Positions 13,095 to 24,830 of a stretch of DNA of 29,735 nucleotides are shown piece by piece (position 1 is the stretch's first letter; each line of letters opens with the position of its first letter). A program made the translations under genes and the position numbers. The DNA is from a virus: IMG/VR virus record IMGVR_UViG_3300049855_000121, positions 1-29,735 of that record; one strand, 5' to 3'. The notes beneath the pieces were generated by a model. It saw only the letters and a list, made by a program, of their open reading frames with translations, was not told the DNA's origin and ran no database searches.

Positions 13095-13343
13095 ATGCCA
13101 AAAAAGGAAACAAGTATGGTAACAGTGTACACCCGCAATACATGCGGTCCCTGCAGAACAGTTAAACACTGGTTGCAGTCAAAAAATGTTGAGTATGTCG
13201 AGAAAAATATTGACGAAAACCCAGAATTATTGTCTGATATAGTAGAAAAGACTGGCATGATGGTGGTTCCTGTTATCCTCATAGATGAAACCGTCATTGC
13301 TGGCGCTAATCTGGCTTTACTTTCTAAAGCACTTATGGTATAA
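13095..13343 (+). CDS. glutaredoxin/NrdH-like redoxin
   Basis: The 82-aa protein has a thioredoxin fold: VTVYTRNTCGPCRTVKHWL with active site CGPC (17-20), then the strand VEYVEKNIDEN, and the cis-Pro segment MVVPVILIDETVIAGAN. Glutaredoxin-like proteins reduce ribonucleotide reductase or other disulfides. No reductase is in the window. A second ATG at 13116 (with AAGGA before it) begins exactly at the fold. The upstream start has the stronger GGGAGG, which may be masked. Confidence 0.8.
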   Translation: MPKKETSMVTVYTRNTCGPCRTVKHWLQSKNVEYVEKNIDENPELLSDIVEKTGMMVVPVILIDETVIAGANLALLSKALMV

Positions 13344-13344
13344 T
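13316..13344 (+). promoter_or_regulatory. promoter of the tRNA transcript
   Basis: TTTACT (13316-13321), 17 bp, TATAAT (13339-13344), with TGG before the -10. The -10 contains the glutaredoxin stop codon. Transcription would begin about 70 nt before the tRNA. Confidence 0.55.
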
Positions 13345-13346
13345 AG

Positions 13347-13412
13347 CGTTGTTCAGTCGCCGTGGGCTGAACGCTTTTCTCCTTCCCCTCAGCGATTCGC
13401 TTGCTGGGGGGA
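13347..13412 (+). other. two hairpins in the tRNA precursor leader
   Basis: GTTCAG/CTGAAC at 13351-13372 (extended by AGC/GCT, followed by TTTTC) may partly end the glutaredoxin mRNA. TCCCCTCAGC (13384-13393) and GCTGGGGGGA (13403-13412) form a 10-bp stem just 8 nt before the tRNA. This could guide processing or be part of a larger RNA. Confidence 0.45.
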
Positions 13413-13420
13413 TCTCTCTA

Positions 13421-13495
13421 GCCGGGATAGAGAAGTAGCGTCTCGGGGGCCTCATAAGCCCCAGATCGCTGCTGCAAATCCAGCTCCCGGTACCA
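13421..13495 (+). tRNA. tRNA-Met-like (CAU), initiator-like with aberrant elbow
   Basis: The 75-nt cloverleaf has acceptor GCCGGGA/TCCCGGT (G1-U72 wobble), discriminator A and encoded CCA. The D-stem is GAGA/TCTC (A11-U24, as in bacterial initiators), and the anticodon stem is GGGGC/GCCCC. The loop CTCATAA is identical to that of E. coli initiator tRNA, with anticodon CAT at 13453-13455. Oddities are a 7-nt D-loop AGTAGCG lacking GG, a T-loop TGCAAAT (G instead of U55), and a C-C mismatch at the T-stem's conserved 53-61 pair. The elbow contacts are therefore weakened. It could work in initiation or elongation, read AUA if modified at C34, or act as a decoy for tRNA-cleaving toxins. Confidence 0.8.
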
Positions 13496-13618: not shown

Positions 13619-13647
13619 TTGACTTTTATAATCCACTGTGCTACTAT
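13619..13647 (+). promoter_or_regulatory. promoter of structured RNA B
   Basis: TTGACT (13619-13624), 17 bp, TACTAT (13642-13647). Transcription would start near 13654, about 30 nt before the closing helix of RNA B. Confidence 0.6.
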
Positions 13648-13653
13648 TAGTGT

Positions 13654-13991
13654 AGTTAGAGAAAAGAAACAGTTCATTAAAATCTGCTCGTAGTAACATA
13701 ATAAGTTGCTACGCACGGCTAATGTCATCATCACGCCCGAAAGGGTCGAAGCGAACCCGTAATAATCAAAGGGGCAAGTGGAGTTAATTGTGGTGAGGTG
13801 CCGACCCTACTATACAAATTACATTATCGTTTGGTTACGATGCAAATTAACTAGCATAGTGCGGAGGGGTTGGTGATGCGTCTAAATTATTGTCGTCGTC
13901 TGATGACCGTAAGCGAACTCTGGGGAAGCCTGGATAGTAGCCTCTGCGGTAGGAAGCTTCGGGGGTAAGGATTCGCCTACGAGCAGTTTTT
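13654..13991 (+). ncRNA. structured RNA B, about 310-340 nt, family not recognised
   Basis: A 10-bp perfect helix (CTGCTCGTAG 13684-13693 with CTACGAGCAG 13977-13986) followed by TTTTT closes the RNA. Inside: GTAAC/GTTGC (13693-13709); CGCAC/GTGCG and GCTA/TAGC (13712-13721 with 13852-13863); GTTAATT/AATTAAC (13783-13789/13845-13851) stacked on it; and ATCGT/ACGAT (13826-13841). Also a CCC-GAAA-GGG hairpin (13736-13745), AGGGTCG/CGACCCT (13742-13748/13802-13808, possibly a pseudoknot), GTCGTC/GATGAC (13892-13907) and GCGAA/TTCGC (13913-13917/13972-13976). It has its own promoter and no ORF. It is not RNase P, tmRNA, 6S or group I/II intron by signature. It is shorter than GOLLD or ROOL, which are also phage RNAs near tRNAs. 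Confidence 0.7.
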
Positions 13992-14005
13992 AGTGAATTA
14001 AAATT

Positions 14006-14176
14006 ATGAGTAAAAGAAAAGCTAAACCAGTTAAAAATCCATTTCTTGTTAGAGGCACTTATAGTCCTGTTGCCCCAAGTATGTATTTGGTGCGGGTTGA
14101 TAAAACTATGCTTGCCTTCTTAAACAAGATGGTTGGCGATCCTCAATTCCGCGAAAAAGTTACTAAGTTACTCTAG
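14006..14176 (+). CDS. 56-aa basic protein between RNA B and terL
   Basis: The sequence MSKRKAKPVKNPFLVRGTYS continues PVAPSMYLVRVDKTML and ends FREKVTKLL. It has a basic N-terminal tail and one helix. It begins 15 nt after RNA B's T-run and has no clear Shine-Dalgarno. Given the position it may bind RNA B or belong to packaging. Unrecognised. Confidence 0.5.
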   Translation: MSKRKAKPVKNPFLVRGTYSPVAPSMYLVRVDKTMLAFLNKMVGDPQFREKVTKLL

Positions 14177-14255: not shown

Positions 14256-15593
14256 ATGGCTTTATTATTGCCCAACCCTCACCCCAAACAAGCTGAATTT
14301 TTAGGCGACAGCCACCGATACCAGGTCCTTAACTGGGGCCGTCGTACAGGTAAATCAGTTGCCGTATGGGAAAAGGTTGTACTCCAGGGAATGCTGCGCC
14401 AAGGCACATACTACATTATTGCCCCGACCTACAAACAGGCCAAGGCTATTTACTGGCGAGACATTTGTAAGCGTTATAAGGGCGACTTTATGACGTTCAA
14501 CGAGCAAGAGCTCTCGGTAACGTTTGACCACTTATCCAACATTACTATACCGACACAAGCCGGTGATATTACTATTTCCCACGACCCAGATCTTCCACCT
14601 ACTCGCATTGAGCTAAAAGGTGCAGACAACCCTGACTCGCTCCGTGGTACAGGTATCATGGGTGCCGTACTTGACGAGTACGCTTTTATGCCTGATGGCA
14701 AATACTTATATGACACGATTATCCGCCCTGCTCTTGCTGACCGCAATGGCTGGGCTGTTTTTATTTCTACTCCGAACGGTGTCGTTAATCACTTCTACGA
14801 CCTTGTAAAGACCGCTCAAGAAGACCCAGAACGATACTACTTTTCTCACGCAACAGCCCTTGATAACACCTACTTCCCACAAGAACAGTTTGAAGAAGCT
14901 AAGCACGAGTATGAAAAAGAAGGCAAACTAGAACAGTTTAACCAGGAGTGGATGGCCGAGTTCGTTAACCCATCACAACTCATATACAGCAACTTCAATC
15001 ACGACGTACACGTATTCAGGGATATGGATGAAATCCCACAAGAGGGCACATACAATCTTACCATTGACTTCGGTATGACCGATCCTACGGCTGCTCTATT
15101 TGTCAAAATAGATTACTCAGGAACCTGGTGGATATTTGACGAGATATATAAAACCGACCTCCACCTAGACCAACTTATTTACGTACTCCGCGACAAGATG
15201 GGCGACGATCGCTACACTCGCATTGTAGGCGATGGTGCCGCCCGGTTTGAGCTGGAGTCACTCCGCAAGCGCCGCTTTAGAATTACTGGCGCAAAGAAGG
15301 GTGCCGACTCTATTGCTAACGGCATTAGAGAACTTAAATCATTACTTGAAATCAGGGAAGCCACAGGCAAGCCAAAGCTGTTTATACACGCTAAGTGCAA
15401 AGAAACAATCAAAGAGTTTGAACGATACTCTTGGGAGCGTGACTCGAACAACGAGATTATGAACACTCCAGAAGACACGTTTAATCACTCCATGGATGCA
15501 CTCAGGTACCTAGCCCTTGATAAAGCAAACCCAATAAGTAAAACAAAAAGGAAACGATATTATGACCCCGATACCGGACGAAGTCTCAACTAG
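14256..15593 (+). CDS. terL: terminase large subunit
   Basis: The 445-aa protein has both TerL halves. The ATPase has Walker A GRRTGKS (28-34), a Q-motif-like PNPHPKQAEFL and Walker B GAVLDE (136-141, with Asp140-Glu141). The RNase H-like nuclease has LTIDFGMTDP (Asp271), VGDGAARFE (Asp326) and NHSMDALRYL (Asp414). TerL pumps DNA into the prohead through the portal and cuts it. Length is typical. It overlaps the next gene by 32 nt. It is separated from terS by a minus-strand cluster and the RNA region. Confidence 0.92.
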   Translation: MALLLPNPHPKQAEFLGDSHRYQVLNWGRRTGKSVAVWEKVVLQGMLRQGTYYIIAPTYKQAKAIYWRDICKRYKGDFMTFNEQELSVTFDHLSNITIPTQAGDITISHDPDLPPTRIELKGADNPDSLRGTGIMGAVLDEYAFMPDGKYLYDTIIRPALADRNGWAVFISTPNGVVNHFYDLVKTAQEDPERYYFSHATALDNTYFPQEQFEEAKHEYEKEGKLEQFNQEWMAEFVNPSQLIYSNFNHDVHVFRDMDEIPQEGTYNLTIDFGMTDPTAALFVKIDYSGTWWIFDEIYKTDLHLDQLIYVLRDKMGDDRYTRIVGDGAARFELESLRKRRFRITGAKKGADSIANGIRELKSLLEIREATGKPKLFIHAKCKETIKEFERYSWERDSNNEIMNTPEDTFNHSMDALRYLALDKANPISKTKRKRYYDPDTGRSLN

Positions 15594-15849: not shown

Positions 15850-17511
15850 ATGACAAAGGGAAAAACGATTAGCCTACAGATGATTGTTAAAGACGAGTTT
15901 GACCAGGTTGCTCAACTTGTCACAAAGGCACAAGACTGCAACGCCTTTAATGAAATAAACCTTACTGTTTCCGACAAGACAACCGTCAATAAATTAAAAA
16001 AGTTATTTGGAAATGAAGTAAATGTCGTATGGCGTACCTGGACTGACCGCTTCGACGAAGCTCGCAACGATAACTACGCCATGTCTACCACAGACTACAC
16101 ATTCTGGTTGGACGCAGATGACGATTTCGACTTCTCTACCATCCCCGAAATACTTGACATAGCTGTAAAAAATGATATAGATGCTATATTCCTTCCATAC
16201 AACTATGCTCAAGACGAAAACGGTAACTGCATTACCCGTCACTGGCGCGAACGCCTTGTCAAGAATGGCAAGGGATTCTCATGGCGCGGCTGGGTACACG
16301 AGACCTATATTTCAGACGAACCATACACTAGCCATAAGGTAAACGTAGAAGTCGTCCATAACGCAGACCCTTCACACGCCGCAGACTCAGTGGAACGCAA
16401 CCACGACATTCTCGTGAAAGCATACGAAGCCGAAAAAGACCCTCGCTACCTTCACTACCTAGGTATGTCATACTTTACTCACGGCGAATACAACACCGCA
16501 GCAGAGCTACTTAGTGAATACTTAGAAGTTGGCGGAAGCCTCGAAGACACCTATCGAGCGCTTGCAGTTCTTTCCGAGTGTGCATATCACCTTAAGCAAC
16601 ACGACCTAGCCCTAGAGTACGCTACTAAATGTGCAACCCTGAAACCAGAATACCCACAAGCCTACTGGCTACTTGCTCAGTATGAGGCAGATCAAAACAA
16701 CTGGGAAGAGGCGCTAGAATGGATACGCGTATCAGAAACAAAACCAGACCCACAGACGCTATCCGTATGGGACCCAAGCTCGCGTGAACGTGCTGCACTA
16801 ATTGGTGCTCAATCCGAGTTCATGCTTGGCAACTACAATGCCGCCTTAGCGTGGCTACGCAAGATCCCGAATAACCCACAAGCTAAAGAACTCTATGAAG
16901 ATTTTCAGAATGAAGCAGACGCTGAAACGTTTGTTAAACTACTGCCAAAGATTATAAAGTTCTTTGCAAGCCCAGTTGTTTTATGGAAAGCACTTGCTCC
17001 AGATTTACAATACGACACCAGATTATTGCAATTACGTCAAGCAGCGACGACTCCTACAAAATGGGATGACAATTCGGTTGTTATCTTCTGCGGCCAGGGC
17101 TACGAAGAATGGGGACCGCACACACTCGATAAAGGCATGGGCGGCTCAGAAGAAGCCGTAGTGTATCTATCGCAAGAGCTATATAACTTAGGATACAAAG
17201 TTACGGTTTACGGGGAACACGACAGCGGCCTAAATAGTCAGGTTGTGTGGCGGCACTGGAAGGAGATAGACCTCCGCGACGACTTTAATATATTCATCTC
17301 TTGGAGAACCCCTCAGTACCTAGAGAAAGTTAAAGCTAAGCGCAAGCTATGCGACCTACACGATGTCATGCCCGAAGAACTTGTCAAGGATTACCCAGAT
17401 GTCACCTACCTGGTCAAGTCACAATACCACCGCGACCTATACCCTCACTTACCAGACTCAAAGTTCCGCATAATCGGCAATGGTATTAAAAAGGAACAGT
17501 TCCATGAATAA
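15850..17511 (+). CDS. two-domain glycosyltransferase: GT2 - TPR - N-terminal half of GT4
   Basis: The 553-aa protein starts with a SunS-like GT2 domain (about 5-165). It shows ISLQMIVKDE, the metal/sugar-binding FWLDADDDFD (DAD 88-90) and RGWVHE (146-151). TPR-like helices fill about 195-350. From about 408 to 553 is the acceptor-side Rossmann domain of a GT4 enzyme: VVIFCGQGYEEWGP, GMGGSEEAVVYLS, FNIFISWRTPQYLE, LVKSQYHRDL and FRIIGNGIKKEQF. It ends exactly where the donor-binding domain should begin. That missing half is encoded at 19184-19741. It probably glycosylates virion proteins or host surface sugars. Confidence 0.75.
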   Translation: MTKGKTISLQMIVKDEFDQVAQLVTKAQDCNAFNEINLTVSDKTTVNKLKKLFGNEVNVVWRTWTDRFDEARNDNYAMSTTDYTFWLDADDDFDFSTIPEILDIAVKNDIDAIFLPYNYAQDENGNCITRHWRERLVKNGKGFSWRGWVHETYISDEPYTSHKVNVEVVHNADPSHAADSVERNHDILVKAYEAEKDPRYLHYLGMSYFTHGEYNTAAELLSEYLEVGGSLEDTYRALAVLSECAYHLKQHDLALEYATKCATLKPEYPQAYWLLAQYEADQNNWEEALEWIRVSETKPDPQTLSVWDPSSRERAALIGAQSEFMLGNYNAALAWLRKIPNNPQAKELYEDFQNEADAETFVKLLPKIIKFFASPVVLWKALAPDLQYDTRLLQLRQAATTPTKWDDNSVVIFCGQGYEEWGPHTLDKGMGGSEEAVVYLSQELYNLGYKVTVYGEHDSGLNSQVVWRHWKEIDLRDDFNIFISWRTPQYLEKVKAKRKLCDLHDVMPEELVKDYPDVTYLVKSQYHRDLYPHLPDSKFRIIGNGIKKEQFHE

Positions 17512-17638
17512 AGAGAAGCTACTTGGCCAACTTGAAATCATTCGTGATATGACCGAACAAGAGGGCGTAAAGCAAATCTGCTACGTGCTCGAAGAGCTTA
17601 TCAACGGACTAGCAAAAAGTGAAATAGGATTTAAATAA
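17504..17638 (+). CDS. 44-aa helical peptide between the GT half and GroEL
   Basis: The ATG overlaps the glycosyltransferase's end (8 nt), and its TAA overlaps the chaperonin's ATG (TAATG). The sequence MNKEKLLGQLEIIRDMTEQE then GVKQICYVLEELINGL is a pair of helices. It is too short for GroES and has no mobile loop. It may be a linker of the inserted cassette or a cofactor of the chaperonin. Unrecognised. Confidence 0.5.
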   Translation: MNKEKLLGQLEIIRDMTEQEGVKQICYVLEELINGLAKSEIGFK

Positions 17639-19200
17639 TGCAGAAACAAATTATAACTGGCGATGCCGCTAAAGAACAGCTCCTAGAAGGGGCGAAGCTG
17701 CTATACGAAGCAGTCTCTACGACACTCGGTCCCAAGGGACAGAACGCCGTTATTGAAGCTTACGGCGAACCGATTGTAACGCATGATGGCGTAACGGTTG
17801 CCAAGTCAATAGAAGATATTAAAGATGCTTCTCCCGGTGCCCGAGTTGGCATTGAAATGATTAAATCATCTTCAAGCAAAACAAACGACAACGTAGGCGA
17901 CGGCACGACAAGCTCAACCATTCTAGCCTACCACCTTATGGAAGATGGTATGAAGCGAATCAAGTCTGGCCAGAACGCTATGGTGCTCCGTAAGCAACTA
18001 GACGAAGCTGCCGAAGAAGCACTTGCTATACTTGAAACTCTAGCCGAGCCTATTGAGACCGAGAAACAAACCATAGAGATCGCTACTATTAGTAGTGAAG
18101 ATAAAGAGGTCGGTAATAACGTTGGCCACATGTACCACGAACTAGGCAAGAACGCTATGGTTGTGGTAGAGATAGGCACCAAGCCAACAGTAGAGTACGA
18201 AATAGTAGAGGGCTATAGCTTTGATACGGGGCTACTTAGTCCAATGATGATTAGCGATACCCGAACCCAGAGTACGACATTTAAGAACCCTGCGATACTT
18301 TTAGCGCACCAAACTGTCGGGTTACGCGACGTAGCCCACCTGTTTGACGACCTTTACAATTCTGGAAAAGATGGCATAGTAATCATAGCCGATGACTTCA
18401 AGGCTGACTTAATTGACGAAGCACTACTGCGCCTTGGCCAGTTCGAGATTATCGGTATTAAAGCCCCGGGCTTTGGCGATAACCGCATTGAATTACTCAG
18501 AGACCTTGGAGCATTGACGGGCACTCAACCAGTAGGCAATAAGCTACCAAAGAAAATAGACACGACCACAGCAAAGGACCTTGGTACTTGCGGCGAGCTA
18601 GTCACCACCAACACTGAAACAGTTATTACTGGTGGCCAGGACGTAGCGGAGTACATTAAAGACCTTGAGGCTAAGCTAGAGGCTACTAAGTCAGAGTTCG
18701 ACAAAGACAAGGTTGCTAAGCGTATTTCAAAACTTCACGCTAAAGTAGGCCAAATTCGAGTAGGTGGCAACACTGAAATGGAGGCCGAAGAACGAAAGTA
18801 TTTAATCGATGACGCTGTAGCGGCCACAGAAGCCGCTCTAAAGGACGGAATAGTCCCAGGCGGTGGAACTACCTATATTGCACTCGCAAACGCCCTGAAG
18901 GGCTCTACAGAGGGCACAGAGCTACTTAAAGAAGCACTACTATCACCCTTCAAGGTTCTAATGACAAATGCGGGCTTGCGCTATGGTCAAAAGCTGGAAG
19001 AACTCCAGGAATATGACTTTGGCTATGGCTTCGATGTCATGGGCGACGATGCCGTTGTAAACCTTAAAGAACATGGTGTAATCGACCCCGTCATGGTGAT
19101 TAAGCAGGCCATCACCAACGCAACGTCTGTAGCTGGGTCTGCCTTAACTACTGGCGTTCTAATAACAACTGAAAAGGAAAAAAATGAAAAGGAAGAATAG
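17638..19200 (+). CDS. groEL: GroEL-type chaperonin (phage-encoded)
   Basis: The 520-aa protein follows the group I chaperonin sequence from end to end. It has TTLGPKGQNAV (28-38), THDGVTVAK with Asp50 (E. coli Asp52), NVGDGTTSST with Asp88 (Asp87), the apical-to-intermediate KAPGFGDNR (275-283), DDAVAAT with Asp392 (Asp398, ATP hydrolysis) and GIVPGGGTTY. It is about 28 residues shorter than E. coli GroEL and lacks the Gly-Gly-Met tail, ending in a charged KEKNEKEE. No GroES gene is in the window, as in some phages whose GroEL works alone. It probably folds virion or packaging proteins. It sits inside a split glycosyltransferase gene. Confidence 0.9.
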   Translation: MQKQIITGDAAKEQLLEGAKLLYEAVSTTLGPKGQNAVIEAYGEPIVTHDGVTVAKSIEDIKDASPGARVGIEMIKSSSSKTNDNVGDGTTSSTILAYHLMEDGMKRIKSGQNAMVLRKQLDEAAEEALAILETLAEPIETEKQTIEIATISSEDKEVGNNVGHMYHELGKNAMVVVEIGTKPTVEYEIVEGYSFDTGLLSPMMISDTRTQSTTFKNPAILLAHQTVGLRDVAHLFDDLYNSGKDGIVIIADDFKADLIDEALLRLGQFEIIGIKAPGFGDNRIELLRDLGALTGTQPVGNKLPKKIDTTTAKDLGTCGELVTTNTETVITGGQDVAEYIKDLEAKLEATKSEFDKDKVAKRISKLHAKVGQIRVGGNTEMEAEERKYLIDDAVAATEAALKDGIVPGGGTTYIALANALKGSTEGTELLKEALLSPFKVLMTNAGLRYGQKLEELQEYDFGYGFDVMGDDAVVNLKEHGVIDPVMVIKQAITNATSVAGSALTTGVLITTEKEKNEKEE

Positions 19201-19741
19201 CGTTGGATACTTCTCCGCGTACTATCGCGGGCTAGAATGTCTACTCAAAATGTGGCCGGAGATCCGCCGCCAAGTACCCGGTGCAACACTTGATGTTTAC
19301 TACGGCTGGGAAAGCTGGACCGCCCTACAAGGCGAAGATGATTTCTATGATCGTATGGAAACATTGTTTAAAAAGCTTAAGAAAGAAGGCGTAACCGTCC
19401 ACGGTCGCGTCAGTCACACAGAACTAGCAAAGGCAATGTCTGAAATCCAAGTATGGGCTTACCCTACTGAGTTCCCAGAGATCCACTGCATAACCGCTCT
19501 TAAGGCACAAGAAGCTGGCTGCTATCCTGTCACTACAAATGTCGCAGCACTTGCAGAAACAGTACAGTCTGGTACAAAGATTGCTACTCGCAAGATATAC
19601 ACCGATGAATACAAGCAAACTAAATTTATAGAAGCTGTTGTCAAGGCTCTTAAAGAAGGTCTTACGGGTACTCCAGTACCGAATACAGACTGGACAGACG
19701 TAGCCAAGCAATGGCAAACAGTATTTGAGGAAACAAAATGA
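19184..19741 (+). CDS. donor-binding (C-terminal) half of a GT4 glycosyltransferase
   Basis: The 185-aa protein is a single Rossmann-like domain. It begins VGYFSAYYRGLECLLKMWPE, then TLDVYYGWESW, VTVHGRVSHTELAKAMSEI, WAYPTEFPEIHCITALKAQE and AGCYPVTTNV. It has the C-terminal GT4 layout without the N-terminal half, which lies 1.7 kb upstream. It has AAGGAAAAAA before the ATG and overlaps the end of groEL by 17 nt. The two halves probably form one enzyme in trans. Confidence 0.75.
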   Translation: MKRKNSVGYFSAYYRGLECLLKMWPEIRRQVPGATLDVYYGWESWTALQGEDDFYDRMETLFKKLKKEGVTVHGRVSHTELAKAMSEIQVWAYPTEFPEIHCITALKAQEAGCYPVTTNVAALAETVQSGTKIATRKIYTDEYKQTKFIEAVVKALKEGLTGTPVPNTDWTDVAKQWQTVFEETK

Positions 19742-20430
19742 TAGGTAAAAAAGAATTTAATGATAGAACATTTAGCTTAGATAGCTATGAGGAGTTTTAT
19801 GAACACCACCACTTCCAACCAATCCCCGAATCGGTCGCCACGAGCGTACACGAAGTTATCCCGCGTTTTGGCTGGGCTTTTGATAAAGTTGAGGAGCTTA
19901 AACCAAAAAGTCTTTTGGACCTTGGTTGCTTGGACGGTTCTTTTGCAAATACTATTGCGCGACACTTTGGAATCAGTGTTGTCGGGGTTGACCTCACAAG
20001 AGATGGAGTTGAAATTGCTCAAAGAAGAGCTAAAGACAATAAGCTCCCCGCCGAGTTCTACCAAGGCTTCGTCGAAGACTGGCTCGAACGTTTCGTATCC
20101 GAAGGTAGAAAATTTGACTGTGTCACGTTCTTCGAAATCATAGAACACGTAGAAGATGTTCAGCGAGTTCTAAAGCTCATAGATCAGGTACTAGCACCAG
20201 GCGGCTTTGTGCTCGTTAGCACACCAGACTTTGAGTCGCCGCTGTATGGTAAAAACGATGAAGACAATAAATGTCACATCAGGCTCTATACCACAGCAGA
20301 CGAAGACTATGAGGCCGAAAACATCTACGGCAATGTTCGCAAAGCTACGTCTATTACAAAAGAAATAGGCAAAGAACGCATTAAAGAAATCGGTGTCTAT
20401 TCAGAGTTAATTAACGTTTTATACCAATAA
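19738..20430 (+). CDS. class I SAM-dependent methyltransferase
   Basis: The 230-aa protein has motif I SLLDLGCLDGSFAN (DLGCLDG 61-67), the acidic end of strand 2 VVGVDLTRDG (Asp85), motif IV-like FDCVTFFEIIEHVEDV and LAPGGFVLVSTPDFESP. The EIIEHVED pattern is common in sugar and small-molecule methyltransferases. Overlapping the glycosyltransferase by 4 nt (ATGA), it may methylate the sugar that enzyme adds. The acceptor is inferred. Confidence 0.8.
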   Translation: MIGKKEFNDRTFSLDSYEEFYEHHHFQPIPESVATSVHEVIPRFGWAFDKVEELKPKSLLDLGCLDGSFANTIARHFGISVVGVDLTRDGVEIAQRRAKDNKLPAEFYQGFVEDWLERFVSEGRKFDCVTFFEIIEHVEDVQRVLKLIDQVLAPGGFVLVSTPDFESPLYGKNDEDNKCHIRLYTTADEDYEAENIYGNVRKATSITKEIGKERIKEIGVYSELINVLYQ

Positions 20431-20512: not shown

Positions 20513-22504
20513 GTGGCCAAAAAAGAAAAACAATATACTAGTGCTAGTACATGGAAGCAACGGTATGAGAACAGAAAAATCAAACAGCAAAAGATGTTTG
20601 AAGACGCTAAAAAGTACTACGACATTATGTACGCGGTACAAAATACAACCAAAATATCTCCATGGAAATCTAAAGTATATGTTCCTGTTCTAGCCTCAAA
20701 GGGCTGGGACCTTATTGCCCGAATGTCAGACGTAGTGCCTCTCTATAACGTTACCGTTAAGGGTGAAGTAACTATTGACGATAATGGTGCCTTTATCATA
20801 CCCGAAGACGTTAGGGAGCGTGAGCGCCGTGTTGAGGCGAAGCTCCACTACGACTACGTATCGTGTGGCGAAGAGCCAATGAAGCTCCGAGTATTTGATC
20901 CATTAGTTGATGCAGTTGTCGCAGGAACAGGCTATGCTTACGCACCATGGGTACACGAAACCAAGGTAAGCAAGGCTCGCAAGTTCTTTGCAAGCGGTAT
21001 GATGGATAACGAGAATATCGTTACCAAAAAGCAACAAACTGGCCACAACGGATTCGAAGGCATTAACTTCTTTAACGTATTTGTAGCCGATAGCTCAAGC
21101 TTCTTTAAAGCTCCTTATTTTATTGTACAAGGCCAGAAGCCGCTAGTAGATATGGAATCTTCTGGGCTATACCAAGACCTAGACAAAGTAGATACTTCAG
21201 TACGCAGCCAACTAGAGTTTGAGTCATATAACGAATCTCGTAACCGTGTTGTGAATGAAAGTGAATCGTTTACTAAAGACGAAACAGTAGAGACTGTCAC
21301 ATACTACGAGTGCTACGAACGCACCGCCGAAGGCGTAACACTAACTACTTTTGCAGAAGGCGCAGAACTTACTGGCGAAGAAGAAGCTGGCTGGGTTGAA
21401 ATCCGACCAACTACAATACCTTACTGGCACAACATGTTCCCAGTCGTACCGTTCTACTGCCGCAAGAAGAGCTACTCAGTATTTGGTGAGTCTCTATTTG
21501 AAAATAACCGAACACTGCAGTCTGCTACTAACGACTTATTCAACCACTACCTAGACAACTGGAACCTATCCATTGACTCTATGCTTATGTATGAAGACGG
21601 CTCGCTTACTAACGACTTTGTTATTGAACCGGGTGGCGAAATTACCTTTACAGGTGAACCGCCAAAGCAGTTTAAATTCCCCGAACCAAACCCTCAACAA
21701 CTTAGCGTCGTTATGAACGTGCTTGAAAAGGGCATTGACGCAGCTACATTTAGTCCATACGCAACAGGTACTCCTAATGACCAGAACGATAAGACTCAGG
21801 GCACCAAGTATGGTGTTCAGAAGATTAGCGAAGCAGCAACAACTAAGATAGGTTTCTTCCGAGATAACTTCAAGCAGTCTATGAAAGTTGTTGGCCAAAT
21901 ATGGCTTTCAAACCTTCAGCAGTTTGCTGATGATCCAGAAGAGATCCGCCGCACCGTAGATGGTAAGGAAATCCCTGATGTTGTTATGCCAAGTGATTAC
22001 CAGGGTGAAATAGAGCTCGATATTGACGATGACTCAATGACCCCACTTAGCAAACAAGACAAGCGAGAAATGCACCAGCAGTTCTTGGGCGGCCTAGCAG
22101 CCACACAAAAACTTGCTATTACCCAAGCAGGCATATTCAAAGACATGAAAGATATACCTCGCTATAACTTCCACGAGATCAACCAGGATACCGCCGAGCT
22201 ATTTTCAAAGAAAGACTTTGACCGATACCTACTTGACCACACAGCAGAAATACCACAAGAGCCACAACCGGACAACACAAAAGAGCTTCTTAACTTTAAC
22301 TATAAAGATGCTCCAGCAGACATCCAGGCTCAAATCGAAGCTATGTATGGCCTAGAGCCATCAGCTATGCACGACACAGCGCTAACACACGAAGCAATTA
22401 AAATGGGTGCTGAACAAGCACAGATAGAAAATGGAGACCCCGACGGTGGAAGACTTAACCCAACAACAACAGGAACACCAGGAACTTCTGGAAGCCCAGC
22501 TTAA
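20513..22504 (+). CDS. portal protein
   Basis: The 663-aa protein starts at GTG with AAAGGAAAC upstream. It has portal features: KSKVYVPVLASKGWDLIARM in the wing region, HNMFPVVPFYCRKKSYSVFG then ESLFENNRTLQSATNDLFNH, the crown/stem segment ATGTPNDQNDKTQGTKYGVQ, and a long helix toward the C-terminus. Size fits podovirus portals. It forms the dodecameric DNA gate bound by TerL and the head-tail adaptor. Its Gly/Thr-rich C-terminal tail overlaps the next gene. Confidence 0.85.
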   Translation: MAKKEKQYTSASTWKQRYENRKIKQQKMFEDAKKYYDIMYAVQNTTKISPWKSKVYVPVLASKGWDLIARMSDVVPLYNVTVKGEVTIDDNGAFIIPEDVRERERRVEAKLHYDYVSCGEEPMKLRVFDPLVDAVVAGTGYAYAPWVHETKVSKARKFFASGMMDNENIVTKKQQTGHNGFEGINFFNVFVADSSSFFKAPYFIVQGQKPLVDMESSGLYQDLDKVDTSVRSQLEFESYNESRNRVVNESESFTKDETVETVTYYECYERTAEGVTLTTFAEGAELTGEEEAGWVEIRPTTIPYWHNMFPVVPFYCRKKSYSVFGESLFENNRTLQSATNDLFNHYLDNWNLSIDSMLMYEDGSLTNDFVIEPGGEITFTGEPPKQFKFPEPNPQQLSVVMNVLEKGIDAATFSPYATGTPNDQNDKTQGTKYGVQKISEAATTKIGFFRDNFKQSMKVVGQIWLSNLQQFADDPEEIRRTVDGKEIPDVVMPSDYQGEIELDIDDDSMTPLSKQDKREMHQQFLGGLAATQKLAITQAGIFKDMKDIPRYNFHEINQDTAELFSKKDFDRYLLDHTAEIPQEPQPDNTKELLNFNYKDAPADIQAQIEAMYGLEPSAMHDTALTHEAIKMGAEQAQIENGDPDGGRLNPTTTGTPGTSGSPA

Positions 22505-23900: not shown

Positions 23901-24830
23901 ATGGCTGTAGGTGGTTATGTATATACCTATCCTGACGTAGCTCGCCGAGAATCACTTCTTGACGCTATGAACATGTTGGAACCAACAGATACTCAACTTT
24001 TAAGTGGTATCATGCAAGGTCCAGCAAACAACACTCTTCACGAGTGGACAATCGACACACTAGAGGCTGTAGGCGACAACGCTCAAGCTGAAGGTGCCGA
24101 CGCTCCTGCCGACGCTTCTAACGACCCAACCCGTCCACAGAACGTTACGCAAATTTTTGCTAAGACTGCTAAGGTTACAGGTTCTGAGAACGCTGACAAC
24201 CTAAAGCGTGTTAGCGGCAAGCGCATGAACCGCGAACTTGTCAAAAAGATGAAAGCACTTAAGAACGACATCGAGTTCGCATTAGTACGTGGTACTATCG
24301 CATCTGGTGTTGCATCGAACAGCGCTGCATCTGCTCGTCGCCTTCGTGGTGTTAAGAGCTGGATCACAACTAACACTAGCAACTACTCTGGTGTCTCACT
24401 TACCGAAACTATCCTTAACGATATTTTTGAAGTACAGTGGGGTGCTGGTGCTCAAGCAGACTCTGTCTACTCAAGCATGAAGGGTAAGCGACGCGTTTCT
24501 AGCTTTACCGCTGGTGCTACCAAGCAAGTTGATCTTAAAGACCGCCGCCTAGTACTTGCAGTAGACGTTTACCAAAGCGACGCAGCAAAACTAGTTAAAT
24601 TGTTCCCTCACCGTCACGTTACGGTTAGTGGTGACTACGGTACAACTGCTACTCCTGGATTTGACTTGCTTAGCCTTGTTGAAGACACTTGGGGTACTGC
24701 ATGGTATCGCCGTCCATTCACTAAGGACTTAGCTGAAACTGGTGACTTTACAGCGAAAGAACTCATCACTGAGTTAACGCTTGAAGCTCGTAACCAAACA
24801 GCTAACGCTCAAGGTCGCGTATTCTTCTAG
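23901..24830 (+). CDS. major capsid protein, SU10-like family
   Basis: The 309-aa protein matches the SU10 major capsid family (HK97 fold). It has SLLDAMNMLEPTDTQLLSGI, an E-loop region HEWTIDTLEAVGDNAQAEGA, QIFAKTAKVTGSENAD, the spine-helix-like MNRELVKKMKALKNDIEFAL and C-terminal VEDTWGTAWYRRPFTKDLAE. AAAGGAAAATAAA precedes the ATG. It builds the icosahedral shell. It stops with TAG just before a GC-rich hairpin. Confidence 0.85.
   Translation: MAVGGYVYTYPDVARRESLLDAMNMLEPTDTQLLSGIMQGPANNTLHEWTIDTLEAVGDNAQAEGADAPADASNDPTRPQNVTQIFAKTAKVTGSENADNLKRVSGKRMNRELVKKMKALKNDIEFALVRGTIASGVASNSAASARRLRGVKSWITTNTSNYSGVSLTETILNDIFEVQWGAGAQADSVYSSMKGKRRVSSFTAGATKQVDLKDRRLVLAVDVYQSDAAKLVKLFPHRHVTVSGDYGTTATPGFDLLSLVEDTWGTAWYRRPFTKDLAETGDFTAKELITELTLEARNQTANAQGRVFF

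Follow-up and report, generated by a model that had tools for sequence, protein, structure and literature searches.

An SU10-like phage encodes a structured RNA of roughly 320 nt that is almost certainly a real, conserved molecule. It was found in the window, by which we mean the whole stretch of DNA analysed (29,735 nt or 29.7 kb; positions 1 to 29,735 of IMG/VR virus record IMGVR_UViG_3300049855_000121). The RNA, at positions 13675-13995, has a closed, multi-branched fold. It is sealed by a closing helix, P1, and contains a kissing pseudoknot, a GNRA hairpin and covarying helices. Copies are often located by tRNA islands. On sequence comparison, we rate it as a new family within the broad kind of structured phage RNAs at tRNA islands.

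In the window, the RNA follows a tRNA-Met gene and precedes a 56-aa ORF that is itself followed by the terminase gene (Table 1). No ORF of at least 60 aa crosses the RNA, and no conserved ORF spans the stretch. The phage also carries a GroEL gene. Positions 15850-20430 hold a glycosyltransferase with TPR repeats, adjoining the phage GroEL and a methyltransferase; this is unusual cargo between terminase and portal genes.

Table 1. Features of the RNA and its surroundings, in window coordinates.
Feature	Position	Strand	Remarks
tRNA-Met	13421-13495		single tRNA of the window
Promoter-like TTGACT-N17-TACTAT, TG before -10	13619-13647	+	9 of 12 positions match; predicted start near 13654
Closing helix P1, 5' strand	13675-13693	+	17 of 18 pairs with both-side changes in at least one homologue
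Helix PB	13696-13699 / 13722-13725	+	4 of 4 pairs changed on both sides; 100% paired
Box A hairpin PA (AGUUG / CGGCU)	13704-13720	+	loop CUACGCA, 13709-13715; in all 12 copies
GNRA hairpin CCC-GAAA-GGG	13736-13745	+	by reading
Box B, AAUAAUCAAAGG	13761-13772	+	apical loop of hairpin in most long copies; invariant alignment columns
Second small hairpin	13780-13793	+	3 of 3 pairs covary; loop UUAA
Helix P2	13801-13874	+	CCGACCC (13801-13807) with GGGGUUGG (13867-13874); 4 pairs counted, plus reading
Central variable arm within P2	13808-13859	+	degenerate or absent in window
Box C, UGCGGAG	13860-13866	+	pairs with box A loop; N/N' covaries in 12 copies
3' domain helix P3	13887-13900 / 13956-13968	+	9 of 12 pairs changed on both sides; 85% paired
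Box D hairpin CUGGG-GAAG-CCUGG	13920-13933	+	4 of 5 pairs changed on both sides; 100% paired
Closing helix P1, 3' strand	13977-13995	+	contains U-run
56-aa ORF	14006-14176	+	directly 3' of RNA; neighbour, outside RNA
Terminase	14256-15593
Portal	20513-22504
SU10-type capsid protein	23901-24830

The RNA is conserved among uncultured phages

We identified 11 further copies, eight long and three compact, in IMG/VR and one GenBank phage. Together with the window this gives 12 copies, all from uncultured phages. The nine long copies (window, L010, L006, L022, L033, L035, L052, L055 and L056) span 321-410 nt; the compact copies (L004, L005 and L078) are of about 230 nt. Relatives of the terminase (74-78% identity) yielded long L003/L010 and L006/L013, and compact L004 and L005. 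Exact patterns of the conserved boxes yielded L020/L022, L033, L035/L039, L052, L055 and L056. Here, L039 is a repeat of L035 and was counted once. The compact copy L078/L093 belongs to MW202497, a phage in GenBank that came from Manatee Spring. When cultured phages and plasmids were searched by DNA, MW202497 was the only result besides tRNA or chance matches. No cellular homologue was found in a genome scan with one strict pattern. Other than the copies named above, the pattern matches in L024-L050, L054, L057 and L060-L077 were judged spurious by reading, as were the genome_contigs matches L058 and L059; the other boxes are missing.

RNAalifold, applied to a MAFFT alignment of the nine long copies, gave 62 pairs, 48 of them with compensatory change. 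The named structure, including the pseudoknot, comprises 57 pairs. Across the same nine copies 95.8% of cells are paired, and both sides change in 40 of the 57 pairs. When partners were slid as a control, pairing fell to 35-48%; the covariation score was 0.595 for the 57 pairs, against at most 0.13 for slid controls. The outer ends of P1 were set by eye. Hence, we repeated the count without the closing helix (94.9% paired, 23 of 39 pairs changed on both sides, score 0.527 against at most 0.132). A model trained on the nine long copies also recovers all three compact ones, which were outside its training set, with E values from 1.7e-6 to 2.5e-9.

Taken alone, the single-sequence fold statistic is weak evidence: the window RNA folds to -104 kcal/mol (z = -2.8), and 1 of 100 shuffles was equally good. 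Chance folding of a non-conserved sequence would sit well with so modest a z, but is refuted by covariation over nine diverged copies, with all controls passed. We regard it as having practically no chance of being correct.

Internal helices and a kissing pseudoknot

A reading of the window made earlier from its sequence alone (the sequence-only reading) had proposed internal helices, one GNRA-capped, and a possible pseudoknot. All are borne out, the internal helices by covariation in the homologues. By reading, box A is followed in nearly every copy by a GNRA loop (GAAA, GUGA, GUAA or GGGA). The box B hairpin forms in most long copies and is above chance, copy by copy, in only a few. In most relatives the second small hairpin is GNRA-capped, in place of the UUAA found in the window. 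The 3' domain holds CUGGG-GAAR-CCYGG within a covarying helix across copies; that of L052 differs.

Box A has the consensus AGYYG-loop-CGGCU, with loop YUANGCA, and box C reads UGCN'GAG. The pair N/N' is C/G in the window, L010, L006, L022 and L033, A/U in L055 and L056, and U/A in L035, L052 and the compact L004, L005 and L078. In the three compact copies the box A loop is one base shorter. N and N' are complementary in 12 of 12 copies. Since these positions change, yet match in every copy, comparison of the sequences argues that the pairing is a real kissing pseudoknot. N/N' differs within apparent sister copies (L033 and L056; L055 and L035), so the double change is likely to have happened several times.

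The closing helix and the ends of the transcript

The perfect 10-bp core of P1 (13684-13693 with 13977-13986) had been recognised in the sequence-only reading. The helix is longer still, continuing outward to 18 pairs. In a separate test, the flanks of each copy were searched for their best contiguous helix, which was compared with those of 200 shuffles. For eight of the nine long copies, no more than 2 of the 200 did as well; the flank helices of L033 and of the compact copies had no significance on their own. In L010 and L006, this test picked the outer portion of P1.

The ends suggested earlier fared less well. A match to the claimed dedicated promoter is present, but it is ordinary, with about two equally good expected by chance in the stretch. 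The T-run had been taken as the end signal of the RNA. We rejected it as a terminator: a terminator scan found none, and the U-run pairs inside the closing helix, opposite an A-run.

A variable central arm resembles tRNA in two copies

The arm within P2 varies in content from copy to copy, which argues that it is a variable domain upon a constant core. In L035 it reads ACGGG-UUCGAUU-CCCGU, CGGCCCC-U-CCA, CAU and GGGGCCG. In L055 it reads GCGGG-UUCAAUU-CCCGU, CCGGCCC-G-CCA, a linker and GGGCCGG, and matches a phage tRNA-Ala. Both follow the permuted order T-arm, 3' acceptor, encoded CCA, linker, 5' acceptor, with two compensated pairs distinguishing their acceptor stems. The central arm of L010 and L006 retains a T-loop, UUCGAAU; that of L033 and L056 contains an acceptor-like hairpin with GCCA, and no good T-loop. 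The permuted arm is missing in most copies, including the window. Judged by sequence, it is certain only in the two related copies L035 and L055.

Against Rfam, L035 matched cyano_tmRNA (E 9e-5) and tmRNA_permuted (E 0.001) over the T-arm and acceptor only. The best permuted-tmRNA score was 26.5 bits, compared with a gathering score of 47 for RF04321, and no copy tested reached the threshold of RF04321 or RF01849-51. ARAGORN called no tmRNA in the records run, no tag reading frame was seen by reading and no conserved tmRNA D-loop was found. The G3:U70 alanine identity pair is missing, with G3-C70 in L035, L055, L033 and L056. On the lack of a tag and of G3:U70, and the sub-threshold scores, we rejected tmRNA.

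Genome context and transcription

tRNA genes occur near 8 of the 12 copies. The terminase is downstream on the same strand in the window, L010, L006, L004, L005, L035, L052 and L055, at a distance of about 4.5 kb in L055. In MW202497 a gap of 1.3 kb separates the RNA from the terminase, and the RNA, on the opposite strand, points away from it. The RNA of L022 adjoins an endolysin gene. The RNA is absent from three relatives of the window phage that are near full length (L009, L014 and L015; terminase 74-78% identity); to judge by sequence, phages of that group can do without it.

In L004, L005 and MW202497, the compact copies, a promoter match precedes the RNA and a hairpin with a U-run follows it; in MW202497 the promoter match is TTGACA-17-TAATAT. 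These motifs show the compact copies laid out as putative transcription units of their own. Given its orientation, promoter and terminator, the MW202497 RNA is not a terminase leader, and we rejected that candidate. The annotated 31-aa hypothetical protein UOF78017.1 (MW202497 42435-42530) sits inside this compact copy; it probably does not correspond to a gene.

A short ORF begins 1-19 nt past the RNA in seven of the nine long copies (window, L010, L006, L033, L056, L052 and L055). These seven may therefore be co-transcribed with the ORF or cis-acting. The downstream ORFs have no homology between lineages, and a fixed protein partner next door was rejected on these grounds. The 56-aa ORF of the window is kept only beside L010 and L006; no relatives were found near compact copies at the loci examined.

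Other candidate elements were seen. Window positions 13339-13412 hold a second candidate small RNA (fold z = -4.25), laid out as TATAAT, a hairpin, single-stranded CUUUUCUCCU and a terminator-like hairpin. The layout recurs, with different stems, in L009, L010, L011, L014, L015 and L078. Its exposed UUCUCCU could pair with Shine-Dalgarno sequences. An element 'GGGCTTCGG..GGTAA' is common to L010 (255-345) and L078 (1393-1510), upstream of the RNA or terminase, and 'CTTTCGGT..TTCTGT.CTAGA.CAG' to L002 (about 4300) and L005 (about 4130). Both are possible further structured RNAs.

A trans-acting RNA is favoured

The layout in MW202497, the endolysin neighbour in L022, the absence from L009, L014 and L015, and the unrelated downstream ORFs speak more for an accessory RNA acting in trans than for a leader or a component of the packaging machinery. 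We consider action in trans probable. The fuller account, of a new structured phage RNA family acting as a trans-acting scaffold, with two-piece processing where the arm is present, has about an even chance of being correct. The molecular mechanism that we infer is as follows. The RNA would work in trans as a compact scaffold, not as the leader of one gene. In L035 and L055, RNase P and tRNA 3' processing would split the transcript in two and leave a CCA end, a scheme modelled on permuted tmRNA. The cut RNA would offer the translation or tRNA machinery a tRNA minihelix. In the window, where the arm was lost or never present, the copy would act via its fold alone. A role touching tRNA or the translation machinery is possible, though we lean against it. 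Less likely again is an undescribed class of phage RNA, distinct from tmRNA, that host tRNA-processing enzymes cut in some lineages, at the permuted tRNA mimic within it, to leave two pieces and an aminoacylatable CCA end.

The short ORF beside seven long copies could mean that the RNA is a cis-acting, riboswitch-like leader. The closing helix would hide the ribosome-binding site until ligand or tRNA binding opened it; in L006 an AAGGA is found where the 3' strand of P1 ends. However, a cis-acting leader would always be upstream of related genes on the same strand. The adjoining ORFs show no relationship from one lineage to another, none adjoins the RNA in L022 or the compact copies, and the compact copies are followed by terminator-like hairpins. 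We consider a leader, opened in this way, unlikely. The permuted T-arm, acceptor and CCA of L035 and L055, with their sub-threshold model matches, would also suit a degenerate, tagless relative of permuted two-piece tmRNA, acting as a tmRNA decoy or inhibitor. There are precedents: aquatic phages have two-piece tmRNAs (PMC9004378), and tmRNA is inhibited by a phage RNA that resembles it but has no tag (PMC11915505). The failed tmRNA calls, sub-gathering scores, missing tag frame and D-loop, and G3-C70 in place of G3:U70 speak against this. Furthermore, most copies have no tRNA-like arm and boxes A to D of the core have no tmRNA counterpart. A decoy is thus improbable. The sequence-only reading had favoured DNA packaging or the capsid, and a downstream terminase on the same strand in eight copies agrees with this. 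The strand and 1.3 kb separation in MW202497, the endolysin gene beside the L022 copy, the 4.5 kb gap in L055 and the three copy-less relatives do not, and we hold such a role to be very improbable. That reading's proposal of a new RNA family stands, since none of the three outcomes that it named as refuting (an Rfam hit, absent covariation or a conserved ORF) was seen; the packaging or capsid role is not supported.

The RNA is of a size that can be made, probed and solved, and its pseudoknotted core is backed by covariation. Few large structured phage RNAs are known, nearly all without a function. This one spans phages with diverse terminases, and in a single molecule it joins tRNA islands, a permuted tRNA mimic and phage RNA. 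The finding also corrects the annotation of a probable non-gene in MW202497.

Comparison with known RNA families

No family in Rfam 15 matches the window RNA at gathering score, and the other records scanned (L033 left out) gave only tRNAs. Permissive scans gave nothing coherent outside the tRNA-like arm. On this ground we rejected RNase P, 6S and group I/II introns. The result agrees with the earlier remark that no signature of these or of tmRNA is visible and, together with the covariation, supports a new family. No description of such an RNA was found in open papers. The GOLLD and ROOL models had no match at gathering score, nor in a permissive scan of the window. Homo-oligomeric RNA-only cages are a hallmark of these two families.

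The packaging RNA (pRNA) of phi29 has 174 nt. It is likewise a phage RNA, linked to packaging; it is shorter and gives no match, and the place and strand of the new RNA are not tied to the terminase. Permuted two-piece tmRNA shares the order of T-arm, 3' acceptor, CCA, linker and 5' acceptor inside a helix with L035 and L055. In contrast, the new RNA has no tag, alanine identity pair or tmRNA D-loop, its core differs and the window copy has no arm. GOLLD is a large structured phage RNA beside tRNA islands, some members of which hold tRNAs in a linker (PMC12286853). It is alike in its setting and in the tRNA found in a variable region of some members. However, GOLLD exceeds 800 nt, compared with about 320 for the window RNA, and the tRNA piece of the new RNA is permuted and inside a stem. 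ROOL, a phage or prophage RNA near tRNA islands with multiple pseudoknots (PMC12286853), is similar in setting and pseudoknotting, but the example that has been solved measures about 660 nt. What the new RNA has in common with GOLLD and ROOL is its setting, not homology; it is unrelated to them and smaller.
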